Positions 1,632-7,592 of a stretch of 7,890 nucleotides of DNA are shown here, one piece after another. The DNA comes from Moraxella caviae (GTDB lineage: Bacteria > Pseudomonadota > Gammaproteobacteria > Pseudomonadales > Moraxellaceae), in NCBI RefSeq assembly GCF_002014985.1, contig NZ_MUXU01000019.1:1-7890 (forward strand), read 5' to 3'. The notes under the pieces were generated by a model. The model was given only the letters and a program-made list of their open reading frames with translations, searched no databases and was not told the DNA's origin. The translations under genes were made by a program, and so were the position numbers. Numbering within the stretch: the first letter of the stretch is position 1; each line of letters starts with the position of its first letter.

Positions 1632-2267
1632 CTAATCAACCAACGCAGGCTCAGGCACTGGCAAGCCACCCACATTTATCACAGTTTCGTGCTGTCTGCC
1701 CAGCTGATTGACGATGGCTTGAACTTTGTCTGCGTCCTGCTGGCTGCCCACGCTGATGTTAAATGTTTGCGTTTCTAAATCAAAACCCATGCTGTATTTT
1801 ATATTTAACTGTTTGATTTTTCTGCTAATTTCATCGCTTTGAGTGTTTTGGTCAATCAGTGATTTTTGATGATGTTTGATGACGATGTACGGCTGAATGC
1901 TTTTATCAAAAGAGCGCACCAGCTCATCACGATTTTTATCATCGCTAAATAAAATCACAATTTTATAGTCAGGCTTGTGCTGAATATACATATCGCCATA
2001 ATGTGGGTCGTTTAGTGCATTGAGTTTTTGGGATACCAAGATGGCGCTGTCTTGCACCTGCATATAACGATCCACATCATCAACCACTGCAGCCGATGTC
2101 GTGTCTTGCGCTGCGTTTTGCTCTGTATCCTGCGCTGCATTTTGCTCGGTATTTTGGTTGTGCATTTCTTGATTGGATGCGTTCAAGGTTTGTGTTTTAT
2201 GCTTTGGCAGCGGCTGGCAAGCGCTCAATGCCCCAACTGCCAACCATAAAACGATGTGTTTTTTCAT
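1632..2267 (-). CDS. Predicted lipoprotein, paralogue of the secreted protein at 2423-3043
   Basis: This 211-residue product has a lipoprotein signal peptide: MKK, a hydrophobic stretch, then lipobox L14-S15-A16-C17, so Cys17 should be lipidated. Residues 18-60 form a low-complexity Asn/Gln/Thr-rich tether with two copies of TEQNAAQD (40-55). A folded part follows from about residue 65. It contains YGDMYIQHKPDYKIVILF (90-107), GFDLETQTFNISV (161-173), DADKVQAIVNQL (178-189) and an end of GGLPVPEPALVD. These blocks align in order with the neighbouring gene upstream, so the two look like diverged tandem duplicates. The ATG at 2267 has AGGACAG seven bases upstream. It lies 155 bases after the paralogue's stop on the same strand. 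Function is unknown; attachment to the outer membrane is inferred because residue 18 is Gln, not Asp. Confidence 0.85.
   Translation of the reverse strand: MKKHIVLWLAVGALSACQPLPKHKTQTLNASNQEMHNQNTEQNAAQDTEQNAAQDTTSAAVVDDVDRYMQVQDSAILVSQKLNALNDPHYGDMYIQHKPDYKIVILFSDDKNRDELVRSFDKSIQPYIVIKHHQKSLIDQNTQSDEISRKIKQLNIKYSMGFDLETQTFNISVGSQQDADKVQAIVNQLGRQHETVINVGGLPVPEPALVD
2101..2148 (-). repeat. 24-bp tandem repeat (two copies) in the lipoprotein linker
   Basis: Two adjacent 24-base units, 2101-2124 and 2125-2148, match at 20 of 24 positions and encode two TEQNAAQD blocks. The unit is a multiple of three, so copy-number change would lengthen or shorten the tether without shifting frame. Confidence 0.8.
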
Positions 2268-2422: not shown

Positions 2423-3043
2423 TTATTTGTCCGCAACTGGCACGCCGCCATAAGCCATCGCCATCGGCACAATGCTATAATTAACGAAAACAATATTTAA
2501 ATCCACATTGGGATTTTTCCATGCTTCCAATAGTTGATTTATTTTGGCTTGCGTTTCATCAGTATTTTTTCCTTTAACTTCTACATTTATTTGACCAGTT
2601 TTTTCATTAAAACCAACCATTTGCACATTGGTTAAATACTGCTGCGCTAATTTCTTGGCTTTTTTGAGCTGCTCTCTGGCAACATCTCTTGTGGCTTTTG
2701 CGCCATAGATCAATTCCACGGGAACGCTGATATTTGTCTGGTTTTTAATAGGCAATCTTGTTGTTTGATTGACGCCATCGCCTGTTAATCTAACAACTAT
2801 TTTATAGGTTGGTTTATTTTCAATATAAATGCCTGCCAAACGACCTTTATATTGGTTTTCTATAAGATCTATAATCCCATCTCTATGCAGTTCAATGGTT
2901 AAAGCCTTTTTTGCTTCGTTAATGCCGACATCGTGAATTTTGGCATATTCTTGTACATCTTTATCAAAACCTTCATTTGCCAATGAAATGGTTGAGCTTG
3001 TCAAAATTACGCACAATAAGGCTTTTGAAATGATTGCTTTCAT
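2423..3043 (-). CDS. Secreted protein of unknown function, paralogue of the lipoprotein at 1632-2267
   Basis: This 206-residue product has a Sec signal peptide (Lys2 and Lys7, hydrophobic 8-20, likely cleavage after SLA at residue 22), so it should be periplasmic or secreted. The mature protein opens with a charged helical region (25-65), then RLAGIYIENKPTYKIVVRLTG (69-88 region), a helical segment rich in Lys, Ala and Gln (115-137), GFNEKTGQINVEVKG (144-158), DETQAKINQLLEAW (162-175) and a C-terminus ending YGGVPVADK. The order and sequence of these blocks match the downstream lipoprotein, which differs mainly in its lipobox and repeat linker. The IENKP-YKIVVRL-G block faintly recalls the propeptide-like domains before secreted S1 peptidases, but no protease domain follows. 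The ATG at 3043 has a weak GAAG upstream. I cannot name a function. Confidence 0.83.
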   Translation of the reverse strand: MKAIISKALLCVILTSSTISLANEGFDKDVQEYAKIHDVGINEAKKALTIELHRDGIIDLIENQYKGRLAGIYIENKPTYKIVVRLTGDGVNQTTRLPIKNQTNISVPVELIYGAKATRDVAREQLKKAKKLAQQYLTNVQMVGFNEKTGQINVEVKGKNTDETQAKINQLLEAWKNPNVDLNIVFVNYSIVPMAMAYGGVPVADK

Positions 3044-3327
3044 ATTTTTAACTTCAAAATAATAAAATGGTGAAAGTGAGCAAACTTATTGCCATTTTCA
3101 TCATAACACCAAGCACATTCAAGAGTTGTGTTTTTTTTGTGAGTAGTTGTGCTTTTATTTTAAAGTTGGTTTTATCTTGTGATGATGGATTGCAGTTTAT
3201 TTTTTGTCGTACTTAAGGGCTAAAATAATTTTGAAAAAATTGATGATAATTAGAGCGTTTAAAAAACAACACCAAAAAACAAGCCACGCAGTTCACAACC
3301 AAATCAATCATATCTGCGCGAATAAAA
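3044..3327. other. AT-rich intergenic stretch upstream of the secreted protein
   Basis: No convincing gene is seen on either strand. The sequence is rich in T and A runs. It should hold the promoter for the secreted protein transcribed leftward, but I see no hexamer pair close enough to consensus to place it. The right edge merges into the prpC terminator hairpin. Confidence 0.5.
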
Positions 3328-3388
3328 CTTTCAGACCGCCTAAATGGTGGTAATCAATCATCGTGCGCCCATTTAGGCTGCCTGAAAG
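3328..3388 (-). terminator. Rho-independent-type terminator of prpC made of paired DNA-uptake-sequence-like repeats
   Basis: Arms at 3328-3347 and 3369-3388 are inverted repeats matching at 18 of 20 positions, with a 21-base loop. In the direction of prpC transcription the second arm is followed by TTTTATT, and the hairpin begins 15 bases after the prpC stop. Read on the plus strand, the right arm contains AGGCTGCCTGAA. Read on the minus strand, the left arm contains AGGCGGTCTGAA. The first is identical to the Simonsiella dialect of the Neisseriaceae DNA uptake sequence as I recall it, and the second is one base from AGGCCGTCTGAA. Inverted pairs of uptake sequences serving as terminators are typical of Neisseriaceae. 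Confidence 0.8.
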
Positions 3389-3402
3389 CTAATCATCGCT
3401 GA

Positions 3403-4560
3403 TTAACGCTCACTCATCGGCACAAACGCCAAATCATCAGGGCCTGTGTAGTTTGCGGACGGACGGATAATCTTGCCGTCTGCACGCTGCTCAAGCACAT
3501 GAGCCGACCAGCCTGTCGTGCGTGAAATCACAAACAATGGCGTGAACATCGCCGTTGGTACGCCCAATTTTTGATACGACACCGCACTGAACCAATCCAA
3601 ATTCGGGAACATTTTTTTCTCGTTCCACATCAAAGTTTCCAAGCGCTCAGCAATGTCAAATAGGCGCATATCGCCTGTTTCGGCAGACAAATCTTTGGCA
3701 ACTTGCTTAATCACCACATTGCGTGGGTCAGACACGGTATAAACAGGGTGTCCAAAGCCAATCACGATTTCTTTGCGACCAATACGCTCACGAATGTCCG
3801 CTTCGGCTTCGTCTGCGTTGCGATAGCGTTTTTGAATGTCGTACGCCACTTCATTCGCTCCACCGTGTTTTGGGCCTTTTAATGCACCGATGGAGCCTGT
3901 GATGCACGAATAAATGTCCGAGCCTGTGCCTGCAATCACACGGCTGGTAAAGGTGGACGCATTAAACTCATGCTCAGCGTACAAAATCAGCGAAATGTGC
4001 ATGGCTTTGATGTGGCTTTCGCTTGGGCGTTTGCCGTGCAGCATATGCAAGAAATGCCCGCCAATGCTGTCTTCTTCACTTTCAACCGAAATGCGCTTGC
4101 CGTTGTGTGAAAATTGATACCAGTACAGCAGTATTGAGCCAAGGCTTGCGATGAGCTTATCGGCAATATCACGCGCTTCGCTGGCAGGCTGGCTTTCACG
4201 TTCTGGGTGTACGCAGCCAAGCATGGACACGCCTGTGCGCATCACGTCCATCGGGTGCGTGTGCGCAGGCAGACTTTCTAGCACTTCAATCACACGAATC
4301 GGCAAACCACGCAAAGATTTCAATTTTTGCTTATACGCCGCCAATTCAAATTTGTTAGGCAGATGACCATGAATGAGCAAATGCGCCACTTCTTCAAATT
4401 CGCAGTGCTTTGCCAAATCCAAAATGTCATAGCCACGATAGCTTAAGTCATTGCCACTGCGACCCACGGTACACAGCGCAGTATTGCCTGCTGCCACGCC
4501 TGATAGGGCAACGGATTTTTTGGGTTTTGGGGTGGTGGTTGGGGTGGTGTCGTTTGACAT
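3403..4560 (-). CDS. prpC: 2-methylcitrate synthase
   Basis: PrpC condenses propionyl-CoA with oxaloacetate to 2-methylcitrate, the entry step of the methylcitrate cycle, in the cytosol. The 385-residue length is normal for the citrate synthase superfamily members of this type. The expected catalytic triad is visible: His232 in GPKHGGANE, His271 in GFGHPVYT, and Asp322 in NLDWFSA. Arg280 (SDPR) and Arg347 ([10 protein letters not shown]) fit the oxaloacetate- and CoA-binding positions, and AEHEFNAST (195-203) is another family motif. The N-terminal 15 residues are a Thr/Pro/Lys-rich tail. The sequence from [19 protein letters not shown] onward matches what I remember of neisserial PrpC more closely than Acinetobacter PrpC. 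The ATG at 4560 has a strong AAGGAG eight bases upstream. prpB lies 330 bases upstream on the same strand; a hairpin sits just before the RBS. Confidence 0.96.
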
Positions 4561-4890: not shown

Positions 4891-5769
4891 TCACTTGGCA
4901 AACAGCTTATCCAATTTCTGCTCAAAATCGTGATAATTGAGATATTCGTAGAGTTCAGCACGCGTTTGCATGGTGTCCACGACATTCGCCTGTGTGCCAT
5001 CACGCATGATCGCCTGATAGACGTTCAATGCTGCAGCACTTGCCGCACGGAAGGTTGATAAAGGATACAGCACCAAAGACACGCCATTATCGGCAAGCTC
5101 TTTTTGTGTGTACAAAGGCGTTGCGCCAAATTCGGTGATGTTTGCCAAGACAGGGACTTTCACCGCATCGCTAAACTTTTGATACATGGAAAGCTTGGTC
5201 ATCGCTTCTGGGAAAATCATGTCTGCGCCTGCTTCCACACAAGCGATGGCACGCTCAATCGCTGCGTCCAAGCCTTCCACCGCCAATGCGTCCGTACGCG
5301 CCATAATCACAAAATTTTCATCAACGCGTGCGTCTACCGCTGCTTTGATTCTATCCACCATTTCATCTTTGGAAACGATGGCTTTGTTTGGACGATGACC
5401 GCAGCGTTTTTGGGCAACTTGGTCTTCAATATGCACCGCTGCCACGCCTGCTCGCTCAAAAGCACGAATGGTGCGTGCGATATTAAATGCACCGCCCCAG
5501 CCCACATCAATATCTACAAGCAAAGGCGTGTCTACGTTGTCGGTGATACGTTGGGCGTCAATAAGCACATCTTCCATCGTGGTAATGCCCAAATCAGGAA
5601 TGCCACGCGAACACGCCGCCACGCCACCGCCTGACAGGTAAATGGCTTTAAAACCGCTCGCCGTTGCCAAGCGTGCAAAATAGGCATTGACACAACCAAC
5701 AACAGCTAAAGGATTTTCGGTGGCGACCGCTTGACGGAATTTTGCACCAGCAGAAAGGGAATTTGACAC
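4891..5769 (-). CDS. prpB: 2-methylisocitrate lyase
   Basis: PrpB splits 2-methylisocitrate into pyruvate and succinate, the last step of the methylcitrate cycle. The protein has 292 residues, the usual length for this isocitrate lyase/PEP mutase family TIM barrel. The signature KRCGH is at 121-125 with catalytic Cys123; Mg-binding Asp86 and Asp88 lie in [15 protein letters not shown] (46-51) and the substrate-contacting ARTDA (157-161) and IFPEA (185-189) are present. It is best read as PrpB and not isocitrate lyase AceA, which is much longer. Translation starts at a GTG (5769; [11 protein letters not shown]), chosen because AAGGAG sits about seven bases upstream and no in-frame ATG fits better. 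prpC follows on the same strand. The protein also matches my memory of neisserial PrpB closely. Confidence 0.96.
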
Positions 5770-6254: not shown

Positions 6255-7592
6255 TCATTCAAAAATGCGCACATAAGCACTGGCACGCAGCTCTTGAATC
6301 CAGTCTTCTTCTGCTTGTGGAGCGATACGGCTAAACAGCAACTCGCGCGCGGCATTGCGGCGATATTGCTCGGTAACATCACGCTCACGCACGTTATCCA
6401 CTTTTAGGATATGCCAGCCAAATTGCGTGCGAAACGGTGTGGAGTAATCGCCAGCTTCGGTGTTTTTCATTGCGGCTTCAAATTCTGGCACCATCTCATC
6501 TTCGCCCACCCAGCCAAGACTGCCACGCTGTGCGGCTGTGCCTGCGTCATCTGAATAAGTGGCGGCAAGCTCATTAAAGTTTGCACCTTTTTGTAGTTCG
6601 GCATAGATGGCGTTGATTTTTTGTTCGGCGATGGCGTTAGTTTGCGTGTCGTCCACGCGCGCTAGGATGTGGCTGGTTTGCCATTCTGGAATCAGCACAC
6701 GGCCTTTGTCGTCTTTTTCTACCAATTTCACCACGTCAATGCCGTTTTGGGTAACGATTGGCGCACTCACATCGCCAGCTTGTAAAGATTGTACCGCTTC
6801 GCTGACACTCGTGGGCAAAGACGCTGCTGCCACACGTCCTGTATCTGCGCCTTGTAGTTCAAGCGGATAATTGCCCTTGGCGCTGTTCATGGCGATTTGT
6901 AGCGGTGCGTCTGTGGCAAGGGCGGCTTGTACACGCTCAGCTGTGGCAAGGGCGGCTTTTTGGGCGGCGTTTTTGCGCTTATTGTTGCTTGAGCTGATGT
7001 CATCTGTATAAGGAATGCGCACATGAATTAGGCGGTATTGTGTTTGGTTTAGCACTGCGCCATCAGGGGATTTTAAGAATGCGTCAATCTCTTGGTCGCT
7101 GACGTTGATGCGGTTTGACACTTGGTGTTGCCATAGCGCAGAGATGGCAGCGTCTTCAATCAGCTGGCGGCGAAGGGCGGCATAGCTGCCTGCTTGTTTG
7201 CCGTCAAGCGCGCGCTGCAGTTCAGACAGTGAGCTGTGGCCTTGTGATTGGGCGATTTGCAGCATTTGGCGGTTAATCACAGCGTCATTGGCGGTAAAGC
7301 CAGCGCGGTTAATCATGCTTAGCTGGATTTTGCGTGTGATGAGCTCGTCTAGGGCTTGCTGCTGAATTTGCGCTGGTGCAGCGTTCACATTGTTGGCTTG
7401 ATATTCGGCAGCCAGTGCGGTTGCCGCGGCGATAAGCTCGCTTTTTAAGATGATTTCATCATTAACCATCGCCACAATGCCATCGGTGCTGTCGGCAACA
7501 CTGATGGCGGCTTGTGCTAGGCTTGGTGCGCTTAGGCTTGCTGCGCCAAGTAGGGCGGCAAGCAGTGATGAAGTAAGCAGTGATTTTTTCAT
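6255..7592 (-). CDS. surA: Periplasmic chaperone / peptidyl-prolyl isomerase SurA
   Basis: SurA escorts unfolded outer membrane proteins through the periplasm to the BAM complex. The 445-residue length is near the gamma-proteobacterial norm. Parts in order: signal peptide (MKK, hydrophobic core, cleavage near AQA at 26-28); SurA N-terminal chaperone domain (about 36-160, starting IVAMVNDEIILKSEL); a diverged first parvulin domain (about 184-292, YRLIHVRIPY to DVVKLVE); a second, well-conserved parvulin domain (about 303-400: QTSHILAR, YSDDAGTAAQRGSLGWVGEDEMVPEFE in pieces, FGWHILKV); and a C-terminal helix and strand ending VRIFE. The ATG at 7592 has AAGGAA upstream. It usually sits directly downstream of lptD; here the upstream neighbour is an IS element 213 bases away. 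It has its own promoter at 7725-7753 and terminator at 6201-6227. Confidence 0.95.
   Translation of the reverse strand: MKKSLLTSSLLAALLGAASLSAPSLAQAAISVADSTDGIVAMVNDEIILKSELIAAATALAAEYQANNVNAAPAQIQQQALDELITRKIQLSMINRAGFTANDAVINRQMLQIAQSQGHSSLSELQRALDGKQAGSYAALRRQLIEDAAISALWQHQVSNRINVSDQEIDAFLKSPDGAVLNQTQYRLIHVRIPYTDDISSSNNKRKNAAQKAALATAERVQAALATDAPLQIAMNSAKGNYPLELQGADTGRVAAASLPTSVSEAVQSLQAGDVSAPIVTQNGIDVVKLVEKDDKGRVLIPEWQTSHILARVDDTQTNAIAEQKINAIYAELQKGANFNELAATYSDDAGTAAQRGSLGWVGEDEMVPEFEAAMKNTEAGDYSTPFRTQFGWHILKVDNVRERDVTEQYRRNAARELLFSRIAPQAEEDWIQELRASAYVRIFE
6911..6958 (-). repeat. surA: 18-bp direct repeat inside surA
   Basis: CTGTGGCAAGGGCGGCTT occurs exactly at 6911-6928 and 6941-6958, a 30-base period. 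It encodes two (K/Q)AALAT segments ten residues apart (212-216 and 223-227) in a helical part of the first parvulin domain. The frame is kept. Confidence 0.75.

Follow-up and report, generated by a model that had tools for sequence, protein, structure and literature searches.

The 7,890-nucleotide stretch of Moraxella caviae DNA analyzed here (the window) carried two neisserial DNA uptake sequences (DUS), one exact and one nearly so, in inverted orientation directly downstream of prpC. This pair likely came with prpB-prpC from a Neisseriaceae donor, a reading to which we assign a probability of about 0.76, and it is the predicted terminator of prpC. The first-pass annotation of the window had proposed that the pair either arrived with the DNA of a Neisseriaceae donor or belonged to an uptake-sequence dialect that the organism shares. 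The first proposal was supported: PrpB and PrpC were closest in kinship to Neisseriaceae proteins, SurA was of the Moraxella type, and the distribution of such pairs among prpC loci agreed. The second appeared unlikely, as Moraxella-type relatives held far too few DUS-like words. The annotation had also spoken of a fingerprint of natural transformation across orders. Transformation is the presumed vehicle, and the step was wider than stated, since Moraxella belongs to the Gammaproteobacteria and Neisseria to the Betaproteobacteria.

The hairpin, at positions 3328 to 3388, was an inverted repeat of two 19-base arms with a 23-base spacer, and 17 of the 19 columns were complementary (2 mismatches). 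Arm 1 (CTTTCAGACCGCCTAAATG, 3328 to 3346) was delimited by the arm alignment (17/19 versus the complement of arm 2) and the fold, and arm 2 (CATTTAGGCTGCCTGAAAG, 3370 to 3388) was delimited by sequence, arm alignment, and fold. On the forward strand of arm 2, positions 3375 to 3386 matched the AG-simDUS AGGCTGCCTGAA with 0 mismatches; on the reverse strand of arm 1, positions 3330 to 3341 spelled the DUS-like word AGGCGGTCTGAA, which was one base off the AG-DUS AGGCCGTCTGAA. The arms carried neisserial DUS, as had been claimed, one being a described dialect and the other lying a single base away. The assignment of the motif to Simonsiella was also upheld, as AGGCTGCCTGAA is named AG-SimDUS in the consulted text of PMC10715097, which gives it as the dialect of Simonsiella, Alysiella, and Kingella oralis.

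The two inverted words lay just past the prpC stop codon with their CTGAA ends pointing outward, and 14 bases separated the TAA stop from the hairpin stem. On the prpC (reverse) strand, the stem was followed by the T tract TTTTATT at 3321 to 3327, which together with the hairpin made up a predicted intrinsic terminator. The RNA fold of this strand had an energy of -37.1 kcal/mol (z score, -5.8), a value that 0 of 200 shuffles equaled. With its stable predicted stem-loop and, on the transcribed strand, the T tract behind it, the structure is predicted to terminate prpC transcription. The output of a terminator scan with a maximum loop of 8 did not include this hairpin, the spacer of which is 23 bases. 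A comparison of positions 3280 to 3420 with a plasmid collection gave no match to the hairpin region. Two N. gonorrhoeae records that were filed as plasmids (NZ_CP119142.1 and NZ_CP119140.1) were chromosome-sized, at 2.17 Mb.

For the counts of DUS words, we used dialect strings that, apart from AG-simDUS, we take to be those of the DUS literature. A search of the window with eight described dialects and AGGCGGTCTGAA returned one exact simDUS, one AGGCGGTCTGAA, and nothing else. The claim that the window had no other copy of the motif held for exact matches, as AGGCTGCCTGAA occurred once and the other arm matched it with 2 mismatches. It did not hold for looser ones: 10 matches with up to 3 mismatches were present, which was at the level of shuffled sequences (mean, 6.8; 28 of 200 shuffles reached 10). 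What was unusual here was exactness and pairing only; loose matches were no commoner than in shuffles.

An ordinary terminator hairpin could happen to spell a DUS. Terminator stems are rich in G+C, some 12-mer match is expected somewhere, and at least one sim/king word was found in 156 of 299 Moraxellaceae-family genomes, or about 0.7 per genome if the words are Poisson distributed. We nevertheless regard a chance origin as scarcely credible. Of 1000 first-order Markov sequences derived from the window, one contained an exact simDUS and one a DUS-type inverted pair, which puts the chance for the window at about 1 in 1000. The arms differed at two columns only, and both were columns at which the dialects also differ. 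Moreover, the site, beside Neisseriaceae-type prp genes, is the usual place of such pairs, and none was found in the 353 tiles of Moraxella-type prp loci described below.

The region downstream of prpC was compared across loci, as the first-pass annotation had suggested. A DUS-type inverted pair was defined as one exact core plus one core within one base, no more than 200 nt past the prpC stop codon. The Neisseriaceae sample consisted of 45 prpC loci (44 matches plus N. gonorrhoeae), and 31 of them carried such a pair; the orientation was that of the window in 29 of the 31, and two different dialects were joined in 11, as in the window. The 18 Moraxella-type loci, so labeled by PrpC and SurA kinship, yielded no pair (one locus had only 86 nt to read), which argued against a hairpin common to all Moraxellaceae prpC loci. 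Loci L106 to L117 (PrpC identity, 74 to 75%) were left out of these 18, and the reading covered 30 of the 41 PrpC matches from the family. The hairpin was also absent from G267, G330, and G339, three Moraxella-type genomes with a Neisseriaceae-type PrpB. As for background, DUS pairs were present in 65 of 632 tiles of 200 nt from the first 31 of the 45 Neisseriaceae loci versus 0 of 353 tiles from the 18 Moraxella-type loci. Exact DUS of the eight dialects numbered 269 in 229,897 bases of Neisseriaceae regions (1.2 per kb) versus 0 in 209,010 bases of 11 Moraxella-type prp regions.

Eight simDUS-rich genomes contained prpC (G980, G982, G983, G984, G986, G988, G989, and G990), and a sim/king pair was located at this site in four of them. 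No DUS pair lay within 200 nt past prpC in G989 or G990, the nearest simDUS-rich relatives of the window. In an AG-dialect genome (G955, locus L184), a hairpin of simDUS and AG-DUS was found 14 to 42 nt past prpC; it was mixed like the one in the window and had the opposite orientation. By eye, similar palindromic repeats around GTGCGTATTACGCACC were seen downstream of prpC in two Moraxella-type loci (L090 and L093) and two simDUS-rich Neisseriaceae loci (L179 and L180). In G967, no 12-mer in the 60 kb read (L209 to L211) was more frequent than ATGCCGTCTGCA, a CTGCA-ending word with 28 copies that was also found downstream of prpC (L198). It falls outside the eight dialects used here and is possibly an undescribed DUS dialect.

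The kinship of the two prp genes was examined by protein identity and gene trees. For PrpB (methylisocitrate lyase; 4891 to 5769, reverse strand), the best named matches among the 120 listed were a Moraxella MAG (91%), Conchiformibius steedae (89%), and C. kuhniae (87%), followed by other Neisseriaceae (84 to 87%), Neisseria among them, and then Chromobacteriaceae (79%). The PrpB proteins of ten Neisseriaceae loci were 88 to 92% identical to that of the window. From 11 of the 18 Moraxella-type loci prpB was taken, and the identity was 66 to 71% in nine of them and 89 to 90%, the Neisseriaceae type, in two (G267 and G330); a third such case (P0241, from G339) came from a protein search. In a PrpB tree of 39 rows, the window, G267, G330, and G339 fell inside Neisseriaceae with support of 99/97, and a single clade of all Moraxella PrpB rows was rejected by the AU test (p = 1.3e-56; log-likelihood, 127.6 lower).

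PrpC (2-methylcitrate synthase; 3403 to 4560, reverse strand) gave a similar placement. In a tree of 55 rows, the window and 11 Moraxella-type rows were nested among Neisseriaceae (98/88); the window was the first branch of a 13-row set (95/88) that included one Neisseriaceae row (L169), and seven other Moraxella-type rows branched outside the Neisseriaceae group. Both trees were built from part of the available rows, with 14 later-read PrpC loci lying outside the PrpC tree. The outgroup was drawn from a PrpC scan of genome contigs; among the 80 loci listed, there was no Moraxella and no recognized genus of Neisseriaceae proper. The gene trees placed both PrpB and PrpC with Neisseriaceae, as opposed to the Moraxella SurA, and on these sequence comparisons the prpB-prpC block is NEISSERIACEAE kin.

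Most of the Moraxella-type loci read had a Neisseriaceae-like PrpC beside a native-type PrpB. Across loci L219 to L230, two PrpB types occurred near similar PrpC in Moraxella-type genomes; the prp locus was mosaic, and on several chromosomes it was far from surA. One PrpC (P0013) named "unclassified Acinetobacter" was 94% identical to that of the window, compared to 74 to 75% for other PrpC of the Moraxellaceae family outside the Moraxella type, and it may represent another transfer or a mislabeled genome. Given this 94% PrpC, the seven Moraxella-type PrpC rows outside the Neisseriaceae group, and the position of L169 inside the Moraxella clade, the traffic was neither one-way nor a single event.

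The host side of the boundary was marked by surA (6255 to 7592, reverse strand), a Moraxella-type gene that flanks the block. After its own record, the closest SurA proteins were 64 to 66% identical, followed by named Moraxella (60 to 61%) and Psychrobacter (about 49 to 53%). In a search of 19 genomes, 18 had a match, the best at 67 to 68% and some of them partial. These results bore out the first-pass description of a Moraxella-like organism. The searches with SurA and with the 211-aa protein described below covered 19 to 21 genomes, including three (G314, G302, and G336) that were picked for DUS counts and small size and had no PrpC match. In relatives, surA did not adjoin prpC, and the two genes were at least 0.18 Mb apart on single contigs of G330, G297, G285, G310, G340, G200, and G275. 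G+C content was rejected as a marker of an imported block: prpB and prpC were at about 50%, the same as surA, and the downstream genes were at about 35 to 44%.

Two genes of unassigned function lay downstream of prpC. One encoded a 211-aa protein (1632 to 2267, reverse strand; no Pfam match). Of 83 Neisseriaceae genomes, G989 and G990 alone encoded a clear relative (37 to 38% identity; E of about 1e-26), on the prpC strand and 2.1 to 2.5 kb past prpC. Both genomes are among the 13 of 83 genomes that were simDUS-rich (about 700 to 2,500 exact simDUS); the other 70 had 193 or fewer. Among 21 Moraxella-type genomes, a weak relative was found in G310 only (28%; E = 2e-11). For the 206-aa protein (2423 to 3043, reverse strand; no Pfam match), weak relatives were found in G990, in the prpB-prpC interval, and in the Moraxella-type G310. 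The open reading frame between prpB and prpC in G990 (L204:10778-12469) resembled the 206-aa protein at its start (E = 2e-6), and the rest read like a putative serine protease.

The nearest prpC DNA among the 45 Neisseriaceae loci was that of G989 and G990. Identity to the window in prpC and prpB was 83.8 and 80.8% for G989, about the same as for G267 (83.5 and 80.9%), the closest of the Moraxella-type loci in which prpC and prpB are both of this type. Since the 211-aa relatives and the prpC/prpB DNA identity point to these simDUS-rich genomes, a donor of the sim/king dialect is likely as judged from sequence. The evidence was split: the 211-aa relatives were only 37 to 38% identical, G989 and G990 have no DUS pair directly past prpC, and the PrpB tree put the group of the window closer to AG/muc-dialect Neisseria rows than to these two genomes, with weak support. 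A donor of another dialect is thus possible.

The genes could also have been in Moraxella already. In that case a Neisseriaceae prp locus would have recombined with them later and contributed the hairpin by itself or together with a short stretch of the 3' end. This would accommodate the 11 Moraxella-type prpC of the same clade that lack the hairpin, as well as the differing histories of prpC and prpB in Moraxella. We consider it unlikely, given that identity did not rise at the 3' end of prpC, where the best match of the last sixth among the 45 Neisseriaceae loci was 82.6%, about the same as for the remainder of the gene, and that the downstream 211-aa gene agreed with the hairpin in its kinship. 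A local recombination block at this end, looked for in six bins of DNA identity, was rejected; the profile was even.

Most likely, a stretch of Neisseriaceae DNA that included prpB, prpC, and the DUS-pair terminator belonging to them was taken up, presumably by natural transformation, and kept beside surA. Pair and genes would have entered in the same event from a donor that probably used the sim/king dialect, and later mutation may have removed other DUS and altered the second arm, the single odd base of which fits decay. In the present host, the hairpin would act as a terminator only, the uptake-tag role belonging to the donor family. The block did not have a donor-like DUS density, as the window held one exact DUS compared to the Neisseriaceae mean given above. 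This low density would be expected if the transfer is old or if the donor was poor in DUS, as G936 is; together with DNA identity of 80 to 84%, it points to an event long past or to a donor outside the sample. The transfer was probably old, since G989 and G990 have no pair after prpC and the block has no other exact DUS.

We also considered whether the motif is native, that is, whether the Moraxella lineage uses its own uptake dialect of the neisserial type. M. catarrhalis is competent via type IV pili, and the consulted text of PMC6384898 (2019) leaves DUS use in its uptake still to be investigated. We regard this reading as very improbable. In 18 Moraxella-type genomes, AGGCNGYCTGAA occurred 162 times in total, with 0 to 39 copies each and at least one copy in 14 of the 18, compared to 16 in total (0 to 2 each) for the reversed-pattern control, and the copies were often clustered. 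The 209 kb of Moraxella-type prp regions had no exact DUS, and the 7.9-kb window had one pair only. An even spread of hundreds or more copies, expected of a native dialect, was not seen in these counts, which were made in relatives' genomes only and make a native dialect unlikely. More widely, AGGCWGCCTGAA was absent from 143 of the 299 family genomes and occurred mostly 1 to 3 times in the others; the highest counts were in G314 (54), G340 (32), G310 (31), G328 (18), and G200 (10).

Many of the DUS-like copies were clustered and were mostly sim/king palindromes, 28 of which lay in nine 20-kb cluster regions. Clusters of such palindromes, some with AG-DUS, were seen in G310, G340, G328, G330, G200, G297, G267, and G306 (L160 to L168), and one region (L161) had seven sim and seven king words within 20 kb. 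These clusters in Moraxella-type genomes are likely islands of Neisseriaceae DNA. In the case of G310, a 2.13-kb block (L162:12914-15042) was 98% identical to L249 of G989, and other pieces of L162 were at 83 to 88% and lower. In G989, both edges of the block had sim/king palindromes within about 60 bases; in G310, such palindromes adjoined one edge. The block looks like a DUS-bounded cassette, and either direction of transfer or contamination is possible. From such sequences, Moraxella-type genomes appear to receive DUS-bearing DNA and to have no dialect of their own, with contamination of draft genomes being possible.

Ambur et al. in 2007 reportedly described how DUS pairs in inverted order terminate transcription in Neisseriaceae. 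The same role is given in the consulted text of Frye et al. (2013; PMC3630211), and the pair in the window shares the inverted arrangement, the outward CTGAA ends, the position directly past a stop codon, the stable predicted hairpin, and the T tract. It also joins two dialects, as do pairs after prpC in Neisseriaceae. Unlike those pairs, it has a gammaproteobacterial host, the relatives of which lack DUS in number, and one of its arms is one base off a dialect. The AG-simDUS arm matches the dialect at 12 of 12 bases, but the window has one copy and genomes of the dialect have thousands; for S. muelleri, PMC3630211 gives 2292 simDUS and 2257 kingDUS in the text consulted. In S. muelleri (same source) and in sampled simDUS-rich genomes, the sim and king words overlap and together make up a palindrome of 15 bases, from which the arm in the window departs at one base; we counted 64 such palindromes in 100 kb of G990 and 16 in 20 kb of G989. 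Peregrine DUS, the foreign-dialect words within Neisseriaceae genomes (PMC3630211), are likewise a sign of past exchange, but they stay within the family, whereas the pair in the window is outside it and in another class. The genomic island of N. meningitidis that carries prp genes (PMC4441257) resembles the window in the horizontal movement of propionate-use genes; it differs in that the paper treats gain by Neisseria, and its main text contains "DUS" and "uptake sequence" 0 times. DUS, their use as terminators, DUS of foreign dialects, and the transfer of prp genes have all been described before. A literature search at title and abstract level, together with the consulted text of PMC3311624, PMC3045334, and PMC6384898, found no report of a DUS-pair terminator outside Neisseriaceae. 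For M. catarrhalis, the text consulted of PMC3045334 gives no reported system analogous to uptake-signal sequences.

DUS are usually viewed as a fence that confines transformation to Neisseriaceae. To judge from the DUS-pair terminator in Moraxella and the clusters in related genomes, tagged DNA may also escape from the family. A broader picture, which we put forward tentatively and at slightly less than even odds, is that Moraxella regularly takes in DNA from Neisseriaceae that live on the same mucosal surfaces, across the beta/gamma divide. The tags would survive as scars, either as single terminators, as here, or, where import is fresh, as clustered sim/king palindromes at the borders of imported cassettes. 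Some of these cassettes could be exported again, since they still carry the tag. A simple word count could then trace the donor dialect and the relative age of transfers into another class. If the import is true, the tag is a lasting fingerprint of prpB-prpC transfer. Import into a lineage that has no native dialect would argue that uptake by Moraxella needs no tag of its own, which bears on the question of sequence specificity raised for M. catarrhalis in the consulted text of PMC6384898.
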